The notes under the pieces are model-generated. The model was not told the origin of the DNA. It saw only the letters and a program-made list of their open reading frames with translations, and searched no databases. The translations under genes were made by a program, and so were the position numbers. This document shows, piece by piece, positions 11,466 through 54,284 of a stretch of 55,207 nucleotides of DNA. This DNA comes from Akkermansia muciniphila (GTDB lineage: Bacteria; Verrucomicrobiota; Verrucomicrobiia; Limisphaerales; BJHT01): assembly GCA_945861535.1 (NCBI GenBank), contig CAMAUZ010000052.1:1-55207 (forward strand), given 5' to 3'. Numbering within the stretch: the stretch's first letter is position 1; every line of letters starts with the position of its first letter.

Positions 11466-11584
11466 GGTTTAGGCCGACAACCCACGCAGCCGTTGAGGAA
11501 TTCACCGTTCCCATCCGTTTCCATCCACACTCCAACTTTGCGACCGTGGGTGGAGACTTCTTGAAGGGTCCGAGACCCGGCAGT

Positions 11585-11774
11585 TTGGAGTGCGGTGACT
11601 CGTCACCGCTTTTGCGCAGGCGACTTGTCGCCGTCGAAGTTCCGGGCGCGTCCGGTCACGCGAACGTCGCTGCGCTGGCGCGAGCCGTGGACGCGCTGAT
11701 TCCAATCGTTGCCCCGTCGAAGTTCGACGGCGACAAGTCGCCTCGGGAAAGCGGTGACAAGTCACCGCACTCCA
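11585..11774. repeat. Inverted repeat TTGGAGTGCGGTGACTCGTC family
   Basis: The left arm GGAGTGCGGTGACTCGTCAC then CGCTTTTGCGCAGGCGACTT; the right arm 11711-11774 is the approximate reverse complement, ending GTCACCGCACTCCAA. About 70 nt separate them. A half copy occurs at 16150-16201. It occupies most of the 405-bp gap 11466-11870, where no gene is evident. Confidence 0.8.
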
Positions 11775-11870
11775 AAGGCGCGCTGTCGGTTGCGTTCGTA
11801 GCGATGACCGGTTTCATCCGTGTTTGAATCGCTTCGTGTTGCCTTCCCCATCACTCTCCAAACCAACCCC

Positions 11871-15747: not shown

Positions 15748-15800
15748 CAAGGGCAAAGCTCAAAGCTCAAGGGAAGCAGCAAGCGCCAAGTGCCAAGCCG
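15748..15800. repeat. AGCTCAA-heptad repeat arm
   Basis: AAAGCTCAAAGCTCAAGGGA followed by AGCGCCAAGTGCCAAG-type words: two AGCTCAA heptads plus a CCAAG tail that recurs with the other copies of this family. It lies in the 672-bp gap 15671-16342, which contains only repeats. Confidence 0.75.
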
Positions 15801-17204: not shown

Positions 17205-17265
17205 AGAGAAGCTCCAAGGCTAAAGCTCAAAGCTCAAGGGAAGGGCCAAGCACCAAGGACCGGGC
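17205..17265. repeat. AGCTCAA-heptad repeat arm
   Basis: CTAAAGCTCAAAGCTCAAGG then GAAGGGCCAAGCACCAAGG, the same word order as the copies at 15.75 and 46.0 kb. It fills most of the 85-bp gap between convergent genes. Confidence 0.75.
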
Positions 17266-17288
17266 TTCCTCGTCTGGCGGGCATCGGC

Positions 17289-17852
17289 TCAAGGGTCGAG
17301 ATCGGCGTTGATCTCGGCCACGGTTCCCAGGCGGACGAAGTAGTCGAACTTCCCCTCGCCGCAGCGCCGTGCGAGATGGGCGACGATCAGCCGCGCCCGG
17401 TCCTCGGTTTCGCTCGGCCCCCGCATGTAGAACGGCTTGCCGTCTTTTCCATAGGTGAAAGCCTCGGTGCACGCCTCCGGTTGGATGCCCCCGAATACGC
17501 GGCTGGCTTTCTTGTAATCGGAATGCGGTGCGAAGCCCAGATTGGCCGCATATTTGACCGCGCCCTCGACCAGCTTGCGGGCACAGCAGGGCGCCAGCGG
17601 AACCATGGGAAAGTCGGCGGCGTAATGTCCGAGAATCCGCGCGCGATAGACCTCCGGCGTGGTGTCGTCGAGGTGCGCGATTTTTGCTCCGAGGCACCAA
17701 GTATCGATGCAGAACACGCCGACTTCGGCGCGCTGGCCGCCGGATTTGAAGCGGGCGACAACCACCCAGCCGATCCCTTTCTCAAAGATGTCGCTGGCAT
17801 AGTACGCTTCGTGGGAGGGCAGGGGATTGGTGGGTGGGATTGCTGCATTCAT
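17289..17852 (-). CDS. Conserved protein of unknown function (paralogue of 6687-7220)
   Basis: 187 residues from ATG 17852 (MNAAIPPTNPLPSHEAYYAS). Shared with the 6.7-kb paralogue: WVVVARFK, CLGAKIA, CCARKLVEGAVKYAANLGF, SDYKKASRVFGGIQPEA, GKPFYMRGP, and CGEGKFDY near the end. The N-terminal SDIFEKGIG segment is clearer here. No signal, membrane or known catalytic motif is visible. Two dispersed, strand-matched copies 10 kb apart suggest an old duplication rather than a recent one, because identity is moderate. Function unknown. Confidence 0.82.
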   Translation of the reverse strand: MNAAIPPTNPLPSHEAYYASDIFEKGIGWVVVARFKSGGQRAEVGVFCIDTWCLGAKIAHLDDTTPEVYRARILGHYAADFPMVPLAPCCARKLVEGAVKYAANLGFAPHSDYKKASRVFGGIQPEACTEAFTYGKDGKPFYMRGPSETEDRARLIVAHLARRCGEGKFDYFVRLGTVAEINADLDP

Positions 17853-17935
17853 CGGGTGTTGGTGTTGGATAAATGCGGGCAGGGCAGGGCGGGACTGTCA
17901 TTGGCGCTGCCACGAAATCTCCCGCTGGTGCTTGG

Positions 17936-17976
17936 TACTTCCTTTGAGTTTTGAGTTTTAGGCTTTGAGCTTTTCC
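17936..17976. repeat. AGCTCAA-heptad repeat arm (reverse orientation)
   Basis: CTTTGAGTTTTGAGTTTTAG then GCTTTGAGCTTTTCC, diverged heptads in the inverse orientation to the copy at 17.2 kb. The two flank the unknown-protein gene 17289-17852 as an inverted pair. Confidence 0.65.
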
Positions 17977-21040: not shown

Positions 21041-21252
21041 AAGGACCAAGCTCAAAGCTCAAAGCTCAAGGGAAACGCCAAGCTCCACCGGCGAAGTCGG
21101 CCGCGTGGAGGTTTTCGCGAACCGCCGTAAGCGGCACCCTCGGGAAACCACGCCTGACCAGTTCGAGACGCACCATTGCCTAACTTGGCTTGGCGCTTGG
21201 ATGCGCTTGAGCCTTCCCTTGAGCTTTGAACTTTGAGCTTTGAGCTTCTCCC
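21041..21252. repeat. Inverted pair of AGCTCAA-heptad arms
   Basis: The left arm CAAGCTCAAAGCTCAAAGCT then CAAGGGAAACGCCAAGC (three heptads). The right arm CTTGGCGCTTGGATGCGCTT ... CTTGAGCTTTGAACTTTGAG then CTTTGAGCTTC is its reverse complement, about 90 nt away. This is the clearest inverted pair of the family and occupies most of the 329-bp gap 20983-21311. Confidence 0.85.
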
Positions 21253-22357: not shown

Positions 22358-22474
22358 GGAGCGCCGATCTCCGATCCGGCGCGGTGCTACGTTGGCTTGC
22401 CCGGTCCACCGGGTTTGGAGACCAGCGCTCCAAAGAGCCGCGCCACGCATCACGCCTTACGCATCACGCCTCCC
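22358..22474. repeat. Palindrome plus CACGCAT/CACGCCT heptads
   Basis: GGAGCGCCGATCTCC (22358) faces GGAGACCAGCGCTCC (22420) as an imperfect inverted repeat. Immediately after, CACGCAT-CACGCCT-TACGCAT and CACGCCT form four consecutive heptads (about 22444-22471). It lies in the gap before the permease operon. Confidence 0.7.
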
Positions 22475-25440: not shown

Positions 25441-26395
25441 GCCTCTCCTCGAAATCAAAAACCTCAAACTCGAGTTCGGCACCGGCAAGGATGCCGTGCG
25501 GGCGGTCGATGACGTGTCCTTCACCATCAACGCGGGCGAGACGGTCTGTCTCGTCGGCGAGAGCGGTTGCGGCAAGAGCGTAACGGCGCTCTCGATCGCG
25601 CGGCTTGTGCCCATGCCGCCGGCGCGCTATCCCGGCGGCCAGATACTGCTCAACGGCCGCGATGTGTTGCAGATGGACAAGACCGAGCTGCGCGCGATCC
25701 GTGGCGGCGTGGTGAGCTATATTTTTCAGGAACCCAGCGCGTCCTTGAACCCCGTCTTCCGTATCGGCAACCAGATCAAGGAATCCCTCAAGCTGCATCG
25801 CCCGCAGGTGGCGACCGACGACGAAGTCATCCGGTTGCTGAAGCTCGTGGGCATTCCCGCGCCGGAATCGCGCATCAAGGACTACCCGCATCAGATGTCC
25901 GGCGGCATGCAACAGCGCGTGATGATCGCGATGGCCCTCGCTTCCGAGCCGAAGTTGCTCATCGCCGACGAACCGACCACCGCCCTGGATGTGACCATCC
26001 AGGCGCAGATTCTCGAGCTGTTGAAGGAACTGAAAGTGCGCCTCGGCATGAGCATCCTGCTCATTACCCACAACCTCGGCATCGTCGGCGACATCGCCGA
26101 CCGCGTTGCCGTGATGTACGCCGGTCAGATCGTGGAACTCGCGCCCGCTCGCGAATTGCTGCGCCGCCCGCTCCATCCCTACACGCAGGCCCTGATGAAC
26201 AGCGTGCCCAAGCTTGGCCGCGAGCAGCAGCGCCTGGAAGCCATCCCCGGCAATGTGCCGAACCTGGGTCACTTCCCCAGCGGCTGCCGCTTCCACCCGC
26301 GCTGTCCGAAGGCGCAAAGTGACTGCTCGCAGAAAGCGCCAGAGTTGGTGGAGGTCGAGCCGGGGAGATTTGTCCGTTGTCCCTACTGGAAATGA
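25439..26395 (+). CDS. Opp/Dpp-type ABC transporter ATPase
   Basis: 318 residues from ATG 25439 ([20 protein letters not shown]). Walker [11 protein letters not shown]-loop region [20 protein letters not shown], signature [16 protein letters not shown], Walker [16 protein letters not shown]-loop ITHNLG. The C-terminal oligopeptide-type region [20 protein letters not shown] contains the cysteine cluster common in OppD/DppD. It energises the permease pair. A second ATPase (DppF type) and a binding protein are not adjacent, so either one ATPase serves twice or the other parts are elsewhere. Confidence 0.93.
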
Positions 26396-27491
26396 CCGCT
26401 AATTCTGGTGCGCGTTCCAGAGAAGGCTGATTCGCCGGTGCTTTTCGCCGCGGCCGCGTAATTTGTGTCACAGGTCCCGTTGGGATGTGATCTTCCCTTG
26501 CGCCGTGGCGGCGGTAATAATCTCGGCGCGGCTTAACTGTTTCCATTCCGTTGGAATGGATGTGAGAACCACAGAGACACGATGGACACAGAGAACAAAC
26601 AAGAACTCGCTGCTCAATCGTCATTCACTGATTGGTAGCTCCCTGAAGCCGACCCGGTCGCTCGGCTTTCTCTATACTACAACTGTGCAAAAATCTCGCG
26701 TCCCGCGAGGACTTTGCATACCACGCTCACCCCGTCCCCAGTTCGTCGCCTTCCCATTCCCCTGCCCCAAATTCCCCTGCCAAACTCGGCTGTGTCTCCC
26801 CGAATGCCGGCGGCGCACTTCGGCAGCCAAATAATCCGTTTCCTTTTGCGCCCGCCGCACGAAAGCGGCCGGAAAATTGCGCTCCCTTCTCCCGTTTCCC
26901 CCGGTGCGACCGGGGACCCGTCGCGCTCCTTCGGTTGTGACGCTGGCGCCCAGTGTTCATGGGATAGTTTTGGTTTTCTTTCCCGTTCCAACTGAGTCGT
27001 TACGGCTTGGGTTTTCCTGCGCTTTCGCGGGTGCGTAGCTACTGCGGGCGCGGACCGCCCGAGGATGCAGGCCATGCTGACGGGGCCTTCGTGCTTCCGC
27101 AGCGCTGAAGAGTAGCAAAGTGGCCAAATTGTAGGGTTGGTTGCCAGTCAACAAACGAAAAACTTGCTGCCGCCGGACTGTCTTTCAGAAACACGACTTG
27201 ACGCCATCCCTGCAAGGAAATCAGAGCGGAGATCGTCGCTTGGTTATCGTTGAGCGGGTCATCGCCTTGTATGAAACCACACGCTACAAATGCCTCTGCG
27301 TCGGCTCCCGATGTCGCCATCTCTGCGGATGATGGCTGTGAATCTCCGGAGATCATGGTTTCCGATTTATGTGACCTATTTCTGGAAATATTACGGGATG
27401 CTGTTTCTTCTTGAGCGCGGGAAATGTACGGCTCGTAGCCATCATTCCTCTCGTTGCTAGCACCTCCTCGTTATGTCAGCGTCGCGGGAAT
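26396..27491. other. 1.1-kb gap of repeats without recognised gene
   Basis: Lower GC than the flanks. It contains an iterated CACAGAG-type arm (AACCACAGAGACACGATGGA then CACAGAGAAC, 26568-26605) and pyrimidine-rich iterated words at about 26730-26785 (CCCATTCCCCTGCCCC, AATTCCCCTGCC). A minus-strand frame 27039-27356 starting MISGDSQPSSAEMATSG is open for 105 codons, but its second half reads through repeat-like sequence. I do not count it as a gene. No tRNA or terminator stands out. Confidence 0.5.
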
Positions 27492-29069
27492 ATGGCTTTT
27501 GATTCCTTCCGCGATTTCCTCGCCGCCCTCGAACGCGCCGGCGAACTCCTCCGCATTACCCAGCCTCTTGCCACTGAACTTGAGATCACCGAACTCGCCG
27601 ACCGCGAGATGAAAAAGCCCGGCGGCGGCAAAGCCCTCCTCATCGAGCAACCCACTGTCAACGGCGTCATCTCCCCGTTCCCCGTCGCCATCAACACCCT
27701 CGGCTCCCACAAACGCATGGCCATGAGCCTCGGCGTTGAGACCGTTGATGCCGCCGCCGCCGAACTCGGCGCACTCATGCGCGCCAAGCCCCCCACCGGC
27801 TTCAAAGAAACCCTCCGCCTCCTCGGCACCGCCCTCGACCTCCGCCACGCCAAACCCAAACTCGTCAAGTCCGGTCCCTGCCAGGAAGTCATCCACAAAT
27901 TCGCCGTCCCCCCCACCCGCACCATCTCCTGGCCACCGGCCCCTCCGATTTCCAATCTCCAATCTTTAATCTCCGCTCCCGCTCCACAGACCCCAGACCC
28001 CAGACCGCAGACCCACGCGTCACCCACGCTGCTTAATCTCCCGGTGCTGCGCTGCTGGCCCCTCGACGGCGGCCGTTTCCTCACCCTCCCCTGCGTCGTC
28101 ACGCGCGACCCCGACACCGGTGACCGCAACCTCGGCATGTATCGCATCCAGATCTACGACGACCGCACCACCGGCATGCACTGGCAGCTTCAGAAAGTCG
28201 CTGCACGCCACGGCCGCCGCTACTACGAAACCGGCACCCGCATGCCCGTCAGTATCTTCCTCGGCGGCGACCCCGTGTTCACCTTTGCCGCCACCGCGCC
28301 CTTACCCGACGGTTTGGATGAATTTCTACTCGCCGGCTACTTAAGAAAGAAATCCGTAGAGTTAGTGAAGTGCCAGACTAATGACTTAGAAGTCCCGGCT
28401 AACTCCGACATAGTCATCGAAGGCTACATCGACCCGCTCGAACCCCTCCGCGACGAAGGCCCGTTCGGCGACCACACCGGCTATTACACTTTGCCCGAGC
28501 CGTATCCCGTCTTCCACGTCACCGCCATTACCCACCGCAAAGACGCCATCTATCCCGCCACCATCGTCGGCATCCCGCCGATGGAAGACTTCTACATCGG
28601 CGGCGCGTCCGTGAAGCTCTTCCTGCCAATCTTCAAGATGAACTTCCCCGAGATCGTTGACATCGCCCTACCCGCCGAAGGTGTCTTCCACAACCTCGTC
28701 TTCGTAAGCATCAAGAAGACCTATCCGATGCAAGCCTACAAAATCATGCACGGCCTCTGGGGCATGGGTCAGATGATGTTCACCAAATACCTCATCGTGG
28801 TGGACGCCGACGTAAACGTACACAACACCAGCGAAGTCCTCTTCCACCTCTGCGCCAACACCGACCCGCAACGCGACAGCCTCTTCACCAAAGGCCCGTC
28901 CGACGTGCTCGACCACGCCACCACCGAAATCGCCACCGGCAGCAAGCTCGGCATCGACGCCACCAAGAAACTCCCCGGCGAAAGCTTCAACCGCCCCTGG
29001 CCGCCGCTCATCAAGATGGATGAAGTCACGCGGAAGAAAATTGACGCGCTGTTCGGGCACAAACCGTAG
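27492..29069 (+). CDS. UbiD-family decarboxylase with an in-frame repeat insertion
   Basis: 525 residues from ATG 27492 (MAFDSFRDFLAALERAGELL). Family signatures: ITELADREMKKPGGGKALLI, RFLTLPCVVTRDPDTGDRNL, GMYRIQIYDDRTTGMHWQLQ, VIEGYIDPLEPLRDEGPFGD, HTGYYTLPEPYPVFHVTAIT and PPMEDFYIGGASVKLFLP. UbiD enzymes use prenylated FMN, made by UbiX, to decarboxylate aromatic acids. In futalosine-pathway organisms a UbiD-like protein (MqnL) acts late in menaquinone synthesis, and mqnD is 6.5 kb away. Residues about 151-176 (PPISNLQSLISAPAPQTPDP ... QTHA) are encoded by heptad repeats rather than family sequence. Codons at 28341-28412 are unusually AT-rich. Three fragments of another ubiD lie downstream. 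Confidence 0.92.
   Translation: MAFDSFRDFLAALERAGELLRITQPLATELEITELADREMKKPGGGKALLIEQPTVNGVISPFPVAINTLGSHKRMAMSLGVETVDAAAAELGALMRAKPPTGFKETLRLLGTALDLRHAKPKLVKSGPCQEVIHKFAVPPTRTISWPPAPPISNLQSLISAPAPQTPDPRPQTHASPTLLNLPVLRCWPLDGGRFLTLPCVVTRDPDTGDRNLGMYRIQIYDDRTTGMHWQLQKVAARHGRRYYETGTRMPVSIFLGGDPVFTFAATAPLPDGLDEFLLAGYLRKKSVELVKCQTNDLEVPANSDIVIEGYIDPLEPLRDEGPFGDHTGYYTLPEPYPVFHVTAITHRKDAIYPATIVGIPPMEDFYIGGASVKLFLPIFKMNFPEIVDIALPAEGVFHNLVFVSIKKTYPMQAYKIMHGLWGMGQMMFTKYLIVVDADVNVHNTSEVLFHLCANTDPQRDSLFTKGPSDVLDHATTEIATGSKLGIDATKKLPGESFNRPWPPLIKMDEVTRKKIDALFGHKP
27944..28018. repeat. Heptad repeats inside ubiD
   Basis: Two heptad runs: TCCAATC-TCCAATC-TTTAATC (about 27950-27973) and CAGACCC-CAGACCC then CAGACCG-CAGACCC (27986-28013). 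They are translated in frame and add about 25 residues to the UbiD protein at a place where UbiD relatives have a short loop. Confidence 0.85.
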
Positions 29070-50649: not shown

Positions 50650-52830
50650 TCACCGCCCCTCTGCCACCTCGGCATCGAACACCCCCGTCAACACGCGGCC
50701 GTCGCACTTCACCTGCACCCAGAGGCGGTAGCGGCCGGGGCGCGGGAATTCGTAGGGGAAGGACACGACCTCGGCGACGGGCGCGGGTGACATTGTAAGA
50801 ACTGCCGACGCCGCTGCGGTGGGCGCGGCGGCGACGTGTCCGCGCTGCGCGACGCTGGTCGGGGATTTCCTTTCCGTCTTCTCCTCGCGCCGGATAAACG
50901 CCTCCTGCGCCGCCATCGAGATCGTTCCCGCCGGATGCAGATGCGCGAAGACGCCGCCGTCCGCATGCCGGACCGCCGCGTGGCCGGACATGCCGATATA
51001 CGATTCCAGCGGCGCGGGCGAACCGTCGGGCTTGCGCACGCGGAAGCGCAGCGCGGCTTCCTGGCGGGTGGTCAGCGGGGCGGCATTTTCCCATTCCATC
51101 ACGAAACCGCCGGGCAATCGGCACGTCCCTGGACGCGGTGGATTTCCCACCGGCAACGGATCGCCGAAATGCCACGAGTCATCCGGATCGAACGCGGTCG
51201 CCGCCGGAACGCTGCTCGCGGGGTTCGTGCCATTTGTGCCGCGCCCATCCGCCGCGCCCGCCGTGACCGCCGCGCCGGTCATTCGTCGCAACGGCACCCC
51301 GCAAAACGGATCGGCCGCGCCACCCCGCCGCGGCACGTTGTCGAGCAGCAGCGAGGGCTCGGGGAAATCCGCCTTGGCCACGAGCGTCTGCGTGAAGCCC
51401 GTCTCGTGCGTGACATCCGCGATCACGGAGTAGCGCCCTGCAGGCAACGGCGGCACCGCGGTTTCAAACGTCGTCGAGTTGCGTTGTATGGGATGCAAAT
51501 GCGCGAACGTGTCCGGCTCCTCGTCGCGAATGAGGAAGAGGTGCATCAGCTTGCCGTGGTCCGGCTGGAGCGGCGTCCAGTAGCGTTGCCCGCCACCGCT
51601 GAGGTCGACGCGCAGCCGCAGAATGGGCACGCCATTGGTCACGCGCACATCGGTCGTCATCGGCAGCGGGCGGTAGAGCCGGTTGGTGCGATAATCGCGG
51701 TCCACCGCGTCCCACCACGCCTTGCCGCCCACCACCATGCCGCTGAACAACAGCGCGCTGCCGACCATCGCGAGCAGCGCCCGTCGCTGTACCGGCGGGG
51801 AAACCGGCGCGCCTGGTTCCACCACCGCCTCGCCCCACGCCGCGCCAACCAGTCGCACCGCCGCGACGAACAGGAAGCTCGCTAGCACAATCAGCCCCGC
51901 GCCATACCAACGCGGCATCGTGAGCCGCGCGGTGGCGATCGCATTCACCGGCACCATCACGTCGCCCGCACCCGCGCCGCCCTCGACGCGAACATCCACG
52001 CTGTAGGCACCTGCCGCCATCAGCCAGAGCGTCGCGGTGTAGAGATTCGTCTCGCCGCGCACCAACTTCGCCACGTCGGGCGGCGGCGCACCGCCTTTGC
52101 CCGCCTTCCAATGCACCGGCAGCACCGCGACGCGCGTGACGCCGGAACGCAGCACGCGCACGGATATTTCCGCCAAGCCCGGAACAACCTGCGGCGGCCG
52201 CACCACCACGCGCACCGGATACGGACCGGCGTTGCCCTCGAAGACGACGTTCGGACTGCCGATGTGCGCGCCAGCCGGAGCGGCGAGCGAGAGGAGCAAC
52301 AGCAGGGCGAGGAAAAACGGGGAAAGAGGAAAAGGGGGAAACGGAAAAGCGGGGAACGTCCAACGTTCAACGTTCAACTTCCAACGTTCAAAGAGAGCGG
52401 CAGAACGCCAAAGACTTTTCCCGCTGCCCTCTGAACGTTGAGCGTTGAAAGTTGAACGTTGAACGTTCCCCATTTCCCTCCTTCCCATTTCCTCCTTCCC
52501 AGCCTTCGTCCCCACGCGGCTCATGCGTCCCTCGTTCATCGCCGCACCTTGAGGATCCAATGCCCGAACCACAGCGCGCCGCGGCGCGAACAGCAGGGCG
52601 AGGGAAAAGGGGGAAAGAGGAAAAGAGGGAAACGGAAAAGCGGGGAACGTCCAACGTTCAACGTTCAACTTCCAACGTTCAAAGAGAGCGGCAGAACGCC
52701 AAAGACTTTTCCGACCGCCCTCTGAACGTTGAGCGTTGAACGTTGAACGTTGAACGTTCCCCATTTCCCCTCTCCCCATTTCCCCCTTCCCAGCGTTCGT
52801 CTCCGCGCGGCTCAGGCGTTCCTCGTTCAT
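50650..52830 (-). CDS. Membrane protein with YtkA/CopC-like beta domains, repeat-expanded N-terminus
   Basis: 726 residues if started at ATG 52830, which overlaps the upstream gene's stop by 4 nt (ATGA); a duplicated ATG at 52539 would give 629. The first 150-plus residues are encoded by CAACGTT heptad repeats duplicated in tandem (291 bp, in frame). The real signal appears as PFFLALLLLLSLAAPAGA just before HIGSPNVVFEGNAG. An Ig-like domain follows, then two TM segments (GAGLIVLASFLFVAAVRLVG; LAMVGSALLFSGMVVGG), then an HGKLMHLFLIRDEEPDTFAH region typical of YtkA/FixH-like or copper-related proteins, and a second domain with HAAVRHADGGVFAHLHPAGT. Many His/Met residues hint at metal contact. 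Exact function unknown. Confidence 0.72.
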   Translation of the reverse strand: MNEERLSRAETNAGKGEMGRGEMGNVQRSTFNAQRSEGGRKSLWRSAALFERWKLNVERWTFPAFPFPSFPLSPFSLALLFAPRRAVVRALDPQGAAMNEGRMSRVGTKAGKEEMGRREMGNVQRSTFNAQRSEGSGKSLWRSAALFERWKLNVERWTFPAFPFPPFPLSPFFLALLLLLSLAAPAGAHIGSPNVVFEGNAGPYPVRVVVRPPQVVPGLAEISVRVLRSGVTRVAVLPVHWKAGKGGAPPPDVAKLVRGETNLYTATLWLMAAGAYSVDVRVEGGAGAGDVMVPVNAIATARLTMPRWYGAGLIVLASFLFVAAVRLVGAAWGEAVVEPGAPVSPPVQRRALLAMVGSALLFSGMVVGGKAWWDAVDRDYRTNRLYRPLPMTTDVRVTNGVPILRLRVDLSGGGQRYWTPLQPDHGKLMHLFLIRDEEPDTFAHLHPIQRNSTTFETAVPPLPAGRYSVIADVTHETGFTQTLVAKADFPEPSLLLDNVPRRGGAADPFCGVPLRRMTGAAVTAGAADGRGTNGTNPASSVPAATAFDPDDSWHFGDPLPVGNPPRPGTCRLPGGFVMEWENAAPLTTRQEAALRFRVRKPDGSPAPLESYIGMSGHAAVRHADGGVFAHLHPAGTISMAAQEAFIRREEKTERKSPTSVAQRGHVAAAPTAAASAVLTMSPAPVAEVVSFPYEFPRPGRYRLWVQVKCDGRVLTGVFDAEVAEGR
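52330..52826. repeat. CAACGTT heptad palindromes in a 291-bp tandem duplication
   Basis: Each unit contains CAACGTT-CAACGTT then CAACTTC-CAACGTTCAA and, about 45 nt later, the reverse complement (GAACGTTGAGCGTTGAAAGT or its variant). The two units start at 52539 and 52830 (ATG contexts GGTGCGGCGATGAACGAGG). The unit includes the last 16 codons of the upstream gene, showing a duplication of gene-junction sequence plus repeat. The period of 291 bp keeps the reading frame. Confidence 0.85.
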
Positions 52831-54056
52831 CGCCGCACCTTGAGCATCCAGTTCCCGAACCACAGCCCGCCGCGGCACGTCGCGACGGCCAGCACCAAAG
52901 CGGCACCCAGCCCGCGCGCCGTCACCGGATCGCGGTCCACCCGCCAGAACGAATCCATCCATGTCCCCGGATTCGAGGTGTAGGGCCAATGCCGGTGTCC
53001 GGCGAAGAACCAGTTGTTCGAGGCCGGGCTGAGCATGAACGACGAGAACATCCACTGCGCCACGAAGAATATCGTGAGAAACGCCGCGGCCAGCGCGAAT
53101 GCCAGCACCCAGTCGCGCCACCACGGGATTTCCGCTGACGCCATCGCGCCCGCGCCGCATTTCCGCCCGCGCTTCTCGCGTTCCACCAGCCAGTCAATCG
53201 CCAGCGCGGGCAGCACCAGCAGCAGCGGGAACGGCGGCGGAACCATCGATGTCACCGGATTGTAAATCGGCGCGAGCATCGGTTGCGCGGCAAAGCGCGG
53301 CAGCACCCAGATCATCAGCAGATACACGCCCACATACACGGTCGCCGCCCACGTCGCGCCCCAGCGCACCGCCGACGCGCGCGACGCCATCACCAGCAGC
53401 GCCGGATAATGCCAGCACGCGATCAGGTAAAACCGCAGCGCGTGCTGTTGGTTGGGAAAACTGTACTCCATCACGAATACCGAGTTCATCGCCGTCATGA
53501 TGCCGACCATGAACACGAACAACCGCGCCACTGCCGTCCGCTGCGGTTCCGCCGCGCGGTTCTGCCACGACAACACCAGCAGCAACACGCCCAGCGCGAC
53601 GCCGAACATGCCGATCGCCAGCAGCGAATGCGGCGGGCTGAGAATCTGCACGTCCAAGCCGTAGGCGTTGTGCCACCAGTCATCGAACGGCGCGGACGTG
53701 AGCATCGCGAAACAGCCCCAGATGGAAATCCACGCCCCCAGCGGCGCGCGCGCGCCCCACAAACTCACCGCCGCCGCGCGTTCCTCCGCCGTGCCGAAAA
53801 ACGTCGTGCGCAGCGCGAGCCAGCCGCACGTCAGCCCCGGCACCACGCCGCCGAGATAAATCACCATGTGCGCCGGTGTCCAAAACGTGTCGCGCCCGAT
53901 GCTCTCGTGCCACGAGATGTCCCACAGCACGCCCAGCGGAATGCACGTCGCGCCAAACACCGCGGCGAGGCAGGACCACGGAATGGCGTGGCTTCGGTCC
54001 GCGCACCCTGGGAGCGCGGGCGGCCCGTCCGCGAGTTGCACCGATGATGTCGCCAT
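52827..54056 (-). CDS. Multi-pass membrane protein
   Basis: 409 residues from ATG 54056 (MATSSVQLADGPPALPGCAD). Earlier in-frame codons lie in an intergenic repeat. About ten TM segments: WSCLAAVFGATCIPLGVLWD, MVIYLGGVVPGLTCGWLALR, WISIWGCFAMLTSAPFDDWW, LAIGMFGVALGVLLLVLS and LALAAAFLTIFFVAQWMFSS among others. Histidines sit in or near membrane segments (WDISWHESIGRDTFWTPAHM, DDWWHNAYGLD, CWHYPALL), which could bind metal. It is coupled by a 4-nt overlap to the YtkA/CopC-like protein downstream. I do not recognise the family; a metal- or respiration-linked pair is a guess. Confidence 0.78.
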   Translation of the reverse strand: MATSSVQLADGPPALPGCADRSHAIPWSCLAAVFGATCIPLGVLWDISWHESIGRDTFWTPAHMVIYLGGVVPGLTCGWLALRTTFFGTAEERAAAVSLWGARAPLGAWISIWGCFAMLTSAPFDDWWHNAYGLDVQILSPPHSLLAIGMFGVALGVLLLVLSWQNRAAEPQRTAVARLFVFMVGIMTAMNSVFVMEYSFPNQQHALRFYLIACWHYPALLVMASRASAVRWGATWAATVYVGVYLLMIWVLPRFAAQPMLAPIYNPVTSMVPPPFPLLLVLPALAIDWLVEREKRGRKCGAGAMASAEIPWWRDWVLAFALAAAFLTIFFVAQWMFSSFMLSPASNNWFFAGHRHWPYTSNPGTWMDSFWRVDRDPVTARGLGAALVLAVATCRGGLWFGNWMLKVRR

Positions 54057-54156
54057 ATTTTTCACTACGCACTGCGACTGCCTGACCCGGACCAAAAACT
54101 CGGGGGCGGCACGCCCGCGCTCCGGGCGCCAGCCTGGATATTTCACACCGATTTTG

Positions 54157-54284
54157 TAGCGCAGGCTTCCAAGCCTGCTGTATCGCGGGTTTCTAAACCC
54201 GCAGCGCGTACGGCGAGGCCGACACCCTGCCGACTTGGAAGTCGGCGACACAGCAGGTTTGGAAACCTGCGCTACAAGGCCGCG
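54157..54284. repeat. Inverted repeat TTGTAGCGCAGGCTTCCAAG family
   Basis: TTGTAGCGCAGGCTTCCAAG, CCTGCTGTATCGCGGGTTTC and, opposite, GCAGGTTTGGAAACCTGCGC then TACAAGG. Nested small palindromes (CGGGTTTCTAAACCCG; CCGACTTGGAAGTCGG) occur inside. It lies in the 429-bp gap 54057-54485. Confidence 0.82.

Follow-up and report, generated by a model that had tools for sequence, protein, structure and literature searches.

Heptanucleotide arrays recur in frame at one variable loop of the ubiD gene in Verrucomicrobia

How does a conserved housekeeping enzyme come to carry tandem heptanucleotide repeats inside its reading frame, and did the repeats move there, arise there, or persist there for a purpose of their own? 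The question is raised by the ubiD gene in a stretch of 55,207 nucleotides (the window), which is contig 52 of G000, a genome of 7.94 Mb split over 169 contigs. The gene and its repeats are laid out as follows.

27492..29066, + strand: ubiD coding sequence of 525 amino acids, with the Pfam domains UbiD_N, UbiD and UbiD_C; uninterrupted reading frame after the ATG at 27492
29067-29069, + strand: ubiD stop codon
27900..28028, + strand: variable segment of 129 nt (FAVPPTR..ASPT), flanked by the conserved ..CQEVIHK and LLNLPVLRCW; the hot spot
27944..27972, + strand: heptad array 1, word CCAATCT (TCCAATC twice exact, the rest degenerate)
27983..28014, + strand: heptad array 2, word CAGACCC (three exact units and one with a single mismatch)

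An in-frame TTG at 27411, upstream of the ATG, would give 27 extra codons. Both arrays sit at the place inside ubiD at which an earlier note on this DNA had located them, and the period of the segment is exactly 7 over at least three units, as in bacterial heptad tandem repeats (SSR/STRR-like). The copy numbers given in that note, three of TCCAATC and four of CAGACCC, hold when degenerate units are counted (TTTAATC and TCCGCTC come after the two exact copies of TCCAATC, and CAGACCG stands beside the three exact copies of CAGACCC), but only two and three units are exact. Rickettsia palindromic elements form palindromic families that insert within genes and are tolerated by the protein. The likeness to them that had been proposed extends to a tolerated, in-frame insertion within a gene; on the other hand, the window insert is not palindromic, and no inverted arms of at least 6 nt were found in the 129-nt segment. 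The GTAG tag is absent from both strands of the segment, CGTC occurs on the + strand only and has no stem, and the segment holds no quadruplex motif.

The position of the repeats in the protein was considered with an AlphaFold model of the window UbiD, built on 42 aligned sequences. By this model, which is of modest confidence (mean pLDDT 65) and has E. coli UbiD as its best structural matches, the window protein has the UbiD fold. Two long parts are poorly modelled, residues 155-178 (the loop) and 456-507, and the pLDDT blocks across residues 151-180 are 47, 31 and 36; the loop that hosts the repeats is probably disordered. The claim that the repeats lie between conserved UbiD segments is borne out, and the stretch that holds them belongs to the two regions modelled with least confidence. 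E. coli UbiD (2idb) has a loop shorter by about 38 residues, and the window segment exceeds the commonest length among the orthologues described below, 87 nt (35 of 103 rows), by 42 nt. On balance, and with little confidence to spare, we read the heptads as local occupants of this permissive, probably disordered loop, which would be a recurrent landing and breeding place for short repeats in Verrucomicrobia. Arrays would arise or grow there via slipped replication in 7-nt steps, in some orthologues through copying between the two arms of a hairpin, or might enter as copies of dispersed arrays of the same word; selection would then remove only stops, frameshifts and misfolding, and the loop peptide would have no specific function. 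This reading gives no reason for the period of 7.

Orthologues were taken from a contig search (the best 80 of 580 confirmed), from the genus, and from an order-wide sample in which 31 of 39 genomes had a match, and the 109 usable UbiD loci gave 103 distinct rows. The closest sequences found for the window protein come from Verrucomicrobia (among the best 80 of 580); records labelled Klebsiella, Akkermansia or Proteobacteria bear metagenome-bin labels and are intermixed with Verrucomicrobia-labelled rows on a tree with no outgroup. When an array is defined by 12 of 14 matches at lag 7, arrays occur at the UbiD site in 33 of the 93 distinct rows tested, of which those that share descent are not independent. 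Fifty synonymous recodings of the segment left an array in a mean of 1.98 of the 93 rows (maximum 7), control segments from the same genes had 0 arrays in each of 20 draws, and among the other lags only lag 14 was frequent (29 of the 93 rows, compared with 0-3 for the remaining lags from 4 to 15). Of the 103 rows that make up the final set, 33 have an array by lag 7, or 34 once lag 14 is counted. There are 43 arrays in 31 distinct sense-strand words, of which three are poor (L041, L067, L121) and some are mutual complements from the two arms of one row; examples are CAATCAT, AACACGC, CAGTGCT, CAATCGG, CAACTCT, CAACCTT, CCCTCGA and ACGCATC. Outside the UbiD site, 15 arrays were found in 498,598 bases (80 loci, L008-L087); our own arithmetic, which sets the 43 arrays against roughly 10 kb of segment sequence, puts the enrichment at the site at about a hundredfold. 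It is scarcely credible that all this reflects an assembly artefact or low-complexity protein: most of the sequences are metagenome assemblies, but the feature is present in 33 rows, two separate genomes agree at 129 nt, and the signal is lost on synonymous recoding, which rules out low-complexity protein as the cause of the arrays.

The site also varies in rows that carry no heptads. Six rows without a lag-7 array have exact palindrome arms of at least 11 nt, so that palindrome rows number at least six, and the longest such arms are those of L034 (26 nt, with GTAGGACAGGC at the start) and L074 (15 nt). The idea of an insertion was to be given up, according to the earlier note, if close relatives had a site of equal length with unrelated sequence, and this is partly what is seen: the loop is present in the relatives, often at one constant length, and its sequence there is unrelated. 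Such loops point to a site that is recurrently rewritten rather than to one insertion.

Whatever the word, the frame is kept. The segment length is divisible by 3 in all 103 rows, and the array lengths are not tied to multiples of 21; the proposal that three heptads, being 21 nt, preserve the frame already fails in the window, where four CAGACCC units make 28 nt. Because 7 cannot be divided by 3, a stop-bearing word would give an in-frame stop once in every three copies. Ten arrays have words that contain a stop, and nine of these would place one or two stops in frame; all nine are altered precisely at the would-be stop (TGA to TCC, TGG, TCA or TGC; TAA to TAT), five of them (L017, L023, L025, L032, L035) with a common arm pattern, probably through descent. 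The absence of stops is itself trivial in an open frame, and the telling point is that departures from the word fall at the stop-phase copies. Phase variation is disfavoured by these comparisons: no out-of-frame segment length was found in the 103 rows, and no change of copy number that shifts the frame was seen between G000 and its sister genome.

That sister genome (G001), the one other genome available for the genus and family, has in its ubiD both arrays, the 129-nt length and the open frame as in G000. Judged from these two sequences, the insert is inherited within the genus with no change of length, and this constancy speaks against fast slippage. Between the two genomes, the segment shows 0.294 synonymous and 0.123 non-synonymous differences per site, as against 0.185 and 0.046 before it and 0.264 and 0.034 after it; by these counts, amino acids change about three times faster in the loop than in the rest of the gene, a rate that is relaxed but not free. 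These comparisons bear on a further explanation, in which selection for a function acts on a structure in the DNA or RNA, or on the peptide (an mRNA hairpin, a quadruplex, or a Pro/Gln/Ser-rich linker). Exact inverted arms of at least 11 nt in 14 of the 103 rows and a quadruplex-like motif in 10, among them the segment of G001, are in keeping with such a function; however, 70 of the 103 rows have no array, the rows differ in word, structure and peptide, inverted arms and the quadruplex motif are both absent from the window segment, and amino-acid change is relaxed. We regard this explanation as very improbable. Altogether, 19 window arrays called at a relaxed threshold were compared with G001, of which five are anchored on both sides and 14 are not comparable. 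Conserved among the anchored ones are two GC-rich stretches (660 and 12309) and the two UbiD arrays, and the remaining one is an intergenic site with another word: positions 22444-22472 hold a CACGCAT array in G000 and a TAATCAC stretch at the same place in G001. A TAATCAC heptad array also stands directly 5' of the ubiD start codon in G001 (L007, a locus that carries the gene on its minus strand), and is absent in G000.

More can be learned from rows in which the word has changed. In 14 rows, picked by hand and by eye and all of 87 nt, the stretch before a WP motif is also heptad-like and is complementary to the stretch after it. The word varies between species in the copies and in both arms together, at one length (L019 GTCGAGA/CCCTCGA, L039 GTTGAGA/CCCTCAA, L035 GTTGAAA/CCTTCAA). 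Own arms pair at a mean of -22.5 kcal/mol and swapped arms at -19.7 (permutation p 0.0004, 14 rows). Two explanations draw on this behaviour. DNA copying in 7-nt steps might rewrite the loop in place, the word being replaced in concert across the copies and both arms with length and frame preserved; the copying machinery would then write the amino acids and selection would proofread only stops. We consider this somewhat unlikely. Alternatively, one ancient heptad array of the common ancestor could have had its word rewritten in concert ever since, by slippage and copying between arms, and have decayed in many lineages, which seems to us decidedly unlikely. The covariation of the word and the better pairing of own arms both favour an ancient array, but four of the 14 rows (L009, L017, L032, L053) have no better-than-average pairing, 21 control rows of the same length without two arms also differ (-15.2 vs -14.0, p 0.025, a value partly due to L112, a near copy of L046, remaining among the controls), and the arms of the two-arm rows maintain a constant one-base difference. 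Array-free loops resemble decayed heptad translations as well, 12 of 70 matching 6 of 7 residues where shuffles give 3.1 such rows and control windows 4.0, yet this fossil-peptide test is weak, its 12 rows including palindrome carriers as well as L046 and its near copy L112.

The tree and the closest pairs of genes add to this picture. On a tree of 100 rows that lacks an outgroup and leaves 50 of its 97 inner branches open, the array label requires 21 changes, 7 of them forced by well-supported branches, while shuffled labels require a mean of 27.9 and only 1 of 500 shuffles is as low as 21. Arrays are thus partly inherited and partly gained or lost; the clustering of the label is what an ancient array would leave, but 21 changes, 7 of them forced, imply many gains or losses. 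Inside one well-supported group, L012 and L018 share 95% identity across the first 900 nt downstream of the segment, and their segments are wholly different; the same is true of L023 and L062 (91% identity), and the segments of L023 and L020 likewise differ. In these near-identical genes the unrelatedness includes the 30 nt preceding the WP motif. Unrelated segments in near-identical genes resemble wholesale replacement, not stepwise slippage.

If words are replaced, where do they come from? The 61 stretches sampled from G000 (1,255,207 bases) hold 96 heptad arrays vs 10 in one Markov sequence, and 281,657 bases of a further genome (G004) hold 3 vs 2. The G000 arrays form 23 word clusters, with AAGCTCA foremost (36 arrays), and 38 of the 96 lie within 150 nt of another, as against 3.3 expected, an excess inflated by their mostly intergenic position. 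CAGACCC accounts for five of the 96, a count inflated by four stretches (L206, L214, L233, L239) that cover known CAGACCC or CAATCCG matches. As an exact 20-mer, CAGACCC is found at four places in G000 including ubiD, and the word may have been copied into ubiD from elsewhere; a control with the reversed pattern is uninformative for it, the word read backwards being the same cyclic word. CCAATCT, on the other hand, may have been made locally, to judge from the slender evidence of exact 20-mers and parts of two genomes. It accounts for one of the 96 sampled arrays, the window's own in ubiD, and no second array was found in the sampled 1.26 of 7.94 Mb; its exact 20-mer, a weak probe that misses even the window's own degenerate array, has 0 matches in G000 and one each in G001 and G004. 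Among 10 genomes, the exact CAATCAT 20-mer is confined to the ubiD of G004, where one sampled array (L252, CAATCAA) is one base off that word, and the exact CAATCCG 20-mer has one place in G000. Genes other than ubiD also carry repeats in frame in G000. Two cases are listed here, the second of which came from a stretch fetched for its CAATCCG/CAGACCC match.

L091 1-1760 (G000:C2), - strand: gene for a Ser/Thr kinase; a two-arm TAATTAC hairpin lies in frame between KLIEGG and HRDIK and is conserved in G001
L206 6010-8166 (G000:C3): methyltransferase-glycosyltransferase linker with a CAATCCG heptad array and, nearby, a repeat dispersed in G001

The TAATTAC arms of the kinase hairpin match many places in G001 (54 of 63 match rows, some of the 54 being one place on both strands, with 40 of 341 candidates scored). 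In G004, a heptad stretch also lies within a kinase gene. Open reading frames around the heptad stretches L234, L252 and L223 look spurious and were discarded. Dispersed words such as CAGACCC and TAATTAC are not produced by slippage alone.

It could be asked whether the arrays are themselves small REP-like mobile elements that insert into genes, carried by a tyrosine transposase of the IS200 type or by some other enzyme, and are retained where they fall in frame. CAGACCC at three other places in G000 (exact 20-mer), the wide matches of the kinase hairpin arms in the sister genome, nine Y1 transposase (Y1_Tnp) matches in G000, and true palindromes at the UbiD site of other species, one of them with GTAGGACAGGC at its start as in published GTAG REPs, are all compatible with mobility. 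However, the window segment is free of inverted arms, CCAATCT has no second array in the sampled part of G000 and CAATCAT is restricted to UbiD in G004 (exact 20-mer), no shared flanks were found by eye around the CAGACCC arrays, and neither ubiD nor the kinase gene shows an empty site between G000 and G001. We consider this explanation unlikely. The view that the repeats are mobile or copied is kept in part: copying is possible for CAGACCC, but there is no sign of recent movement, the insert being shared with the sister genome.

Several other repeats of the window are recorded here as observations in their own right. AAGCTCA/TTGAGCT arms ending GGGAAG and CTTCCC occur at 15749-15770, 17209-17973 and 21045-21248; the interiors bracketed by such arms are not the same in G000 and G001, in the manner of exchangeable cassettes, and some are contig breaks of G001. 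A 291-bp tandem duplication at 52298-52876 holds AACGTTC/TGAACGT heptad arms, and 26395-26790, 11578-11790 and 54131-54282 are dispersed repeats, about 100-220 bp long, that match many places in G001.

How far is this arrangement new? Parts of several papers allow a comparison. REPs tagged with GTAG/CGTC occur inside genes, the verrucomicrobium Opitutus terrae having the highest intragenic GTAG count; over half of the intragenic REP inserts encode 20-30 residues, and the recB genes of two Xanthomonas species carry different REPs at about the same site (PMC3733652, which also names the Rickettsia palindromic elements). Common to those REPs and the present arrays is the occurrence of short repeats in ordinary verrucomicrobial genes; each REP, as described there (PMC3733652), is a palindrome that carries a tag and the sequence of its family, whereas the window arrays are non-palindromic and without the GTAG tag, and the words of the site vary by species. 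Geobacter metallireducens has elements of four heptanucleotides at 49 places within and between genes, and regulator sites of five heptads (PMC2700814). These are likewise tandem and both intragenic and intergenic, and the sites, mostly paired, are likewise depicted as folding back onto the opposite strand; but each family has one consensus word in one genome, and one coding site with changing words is not among the features described in the relevant parts of that paper (PMC2700814). Xanthomonas and Nostoc have heptameric repeats (PMC4692102), and Beggiatoaceae have TAACTGA repeats (PMC4679880), that share the period of 7 and the short, dispersed arrays but favour one or few words per genome, and the TAACTGA sets are nearly all intergenic. 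The coding inverted repeats of nematomorph mitochondria, with long perfect arms, are similar to the two-arm UbiD group only, and their abstract mentions no heptads (PMC6649704). Template switching that converts imperfect inverted repeats is an idea cited in PMC4060949. Full-text literature searches, with most subscription journals outside their coverage, returned no title or abstract on a UbiD repeat site. REPs within genes of a verrucomicrobium, and heptads within genes of Geobacter, have already been published, and the UbiD site adds a variant to these known cases.

Two of these papers report that bacterial repeats include an excess of heptads, and the cause that they cite, polymerase slippage at 7 nt, is a proposal only (PMC4679880, PMC4692102). 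The UbiD site offers a natural set of aligned sites in which the birth, spread and word change of bacterial heptads can be followed, since the enzyme, conserved to either side, provides a fixed frame of reference. The comparison suggests that a housekeeping enzyme tolerates the repeated rewriting of one of its loops, and the amino acids of that loop may be set largely by the DNA-copying habit of the genome.
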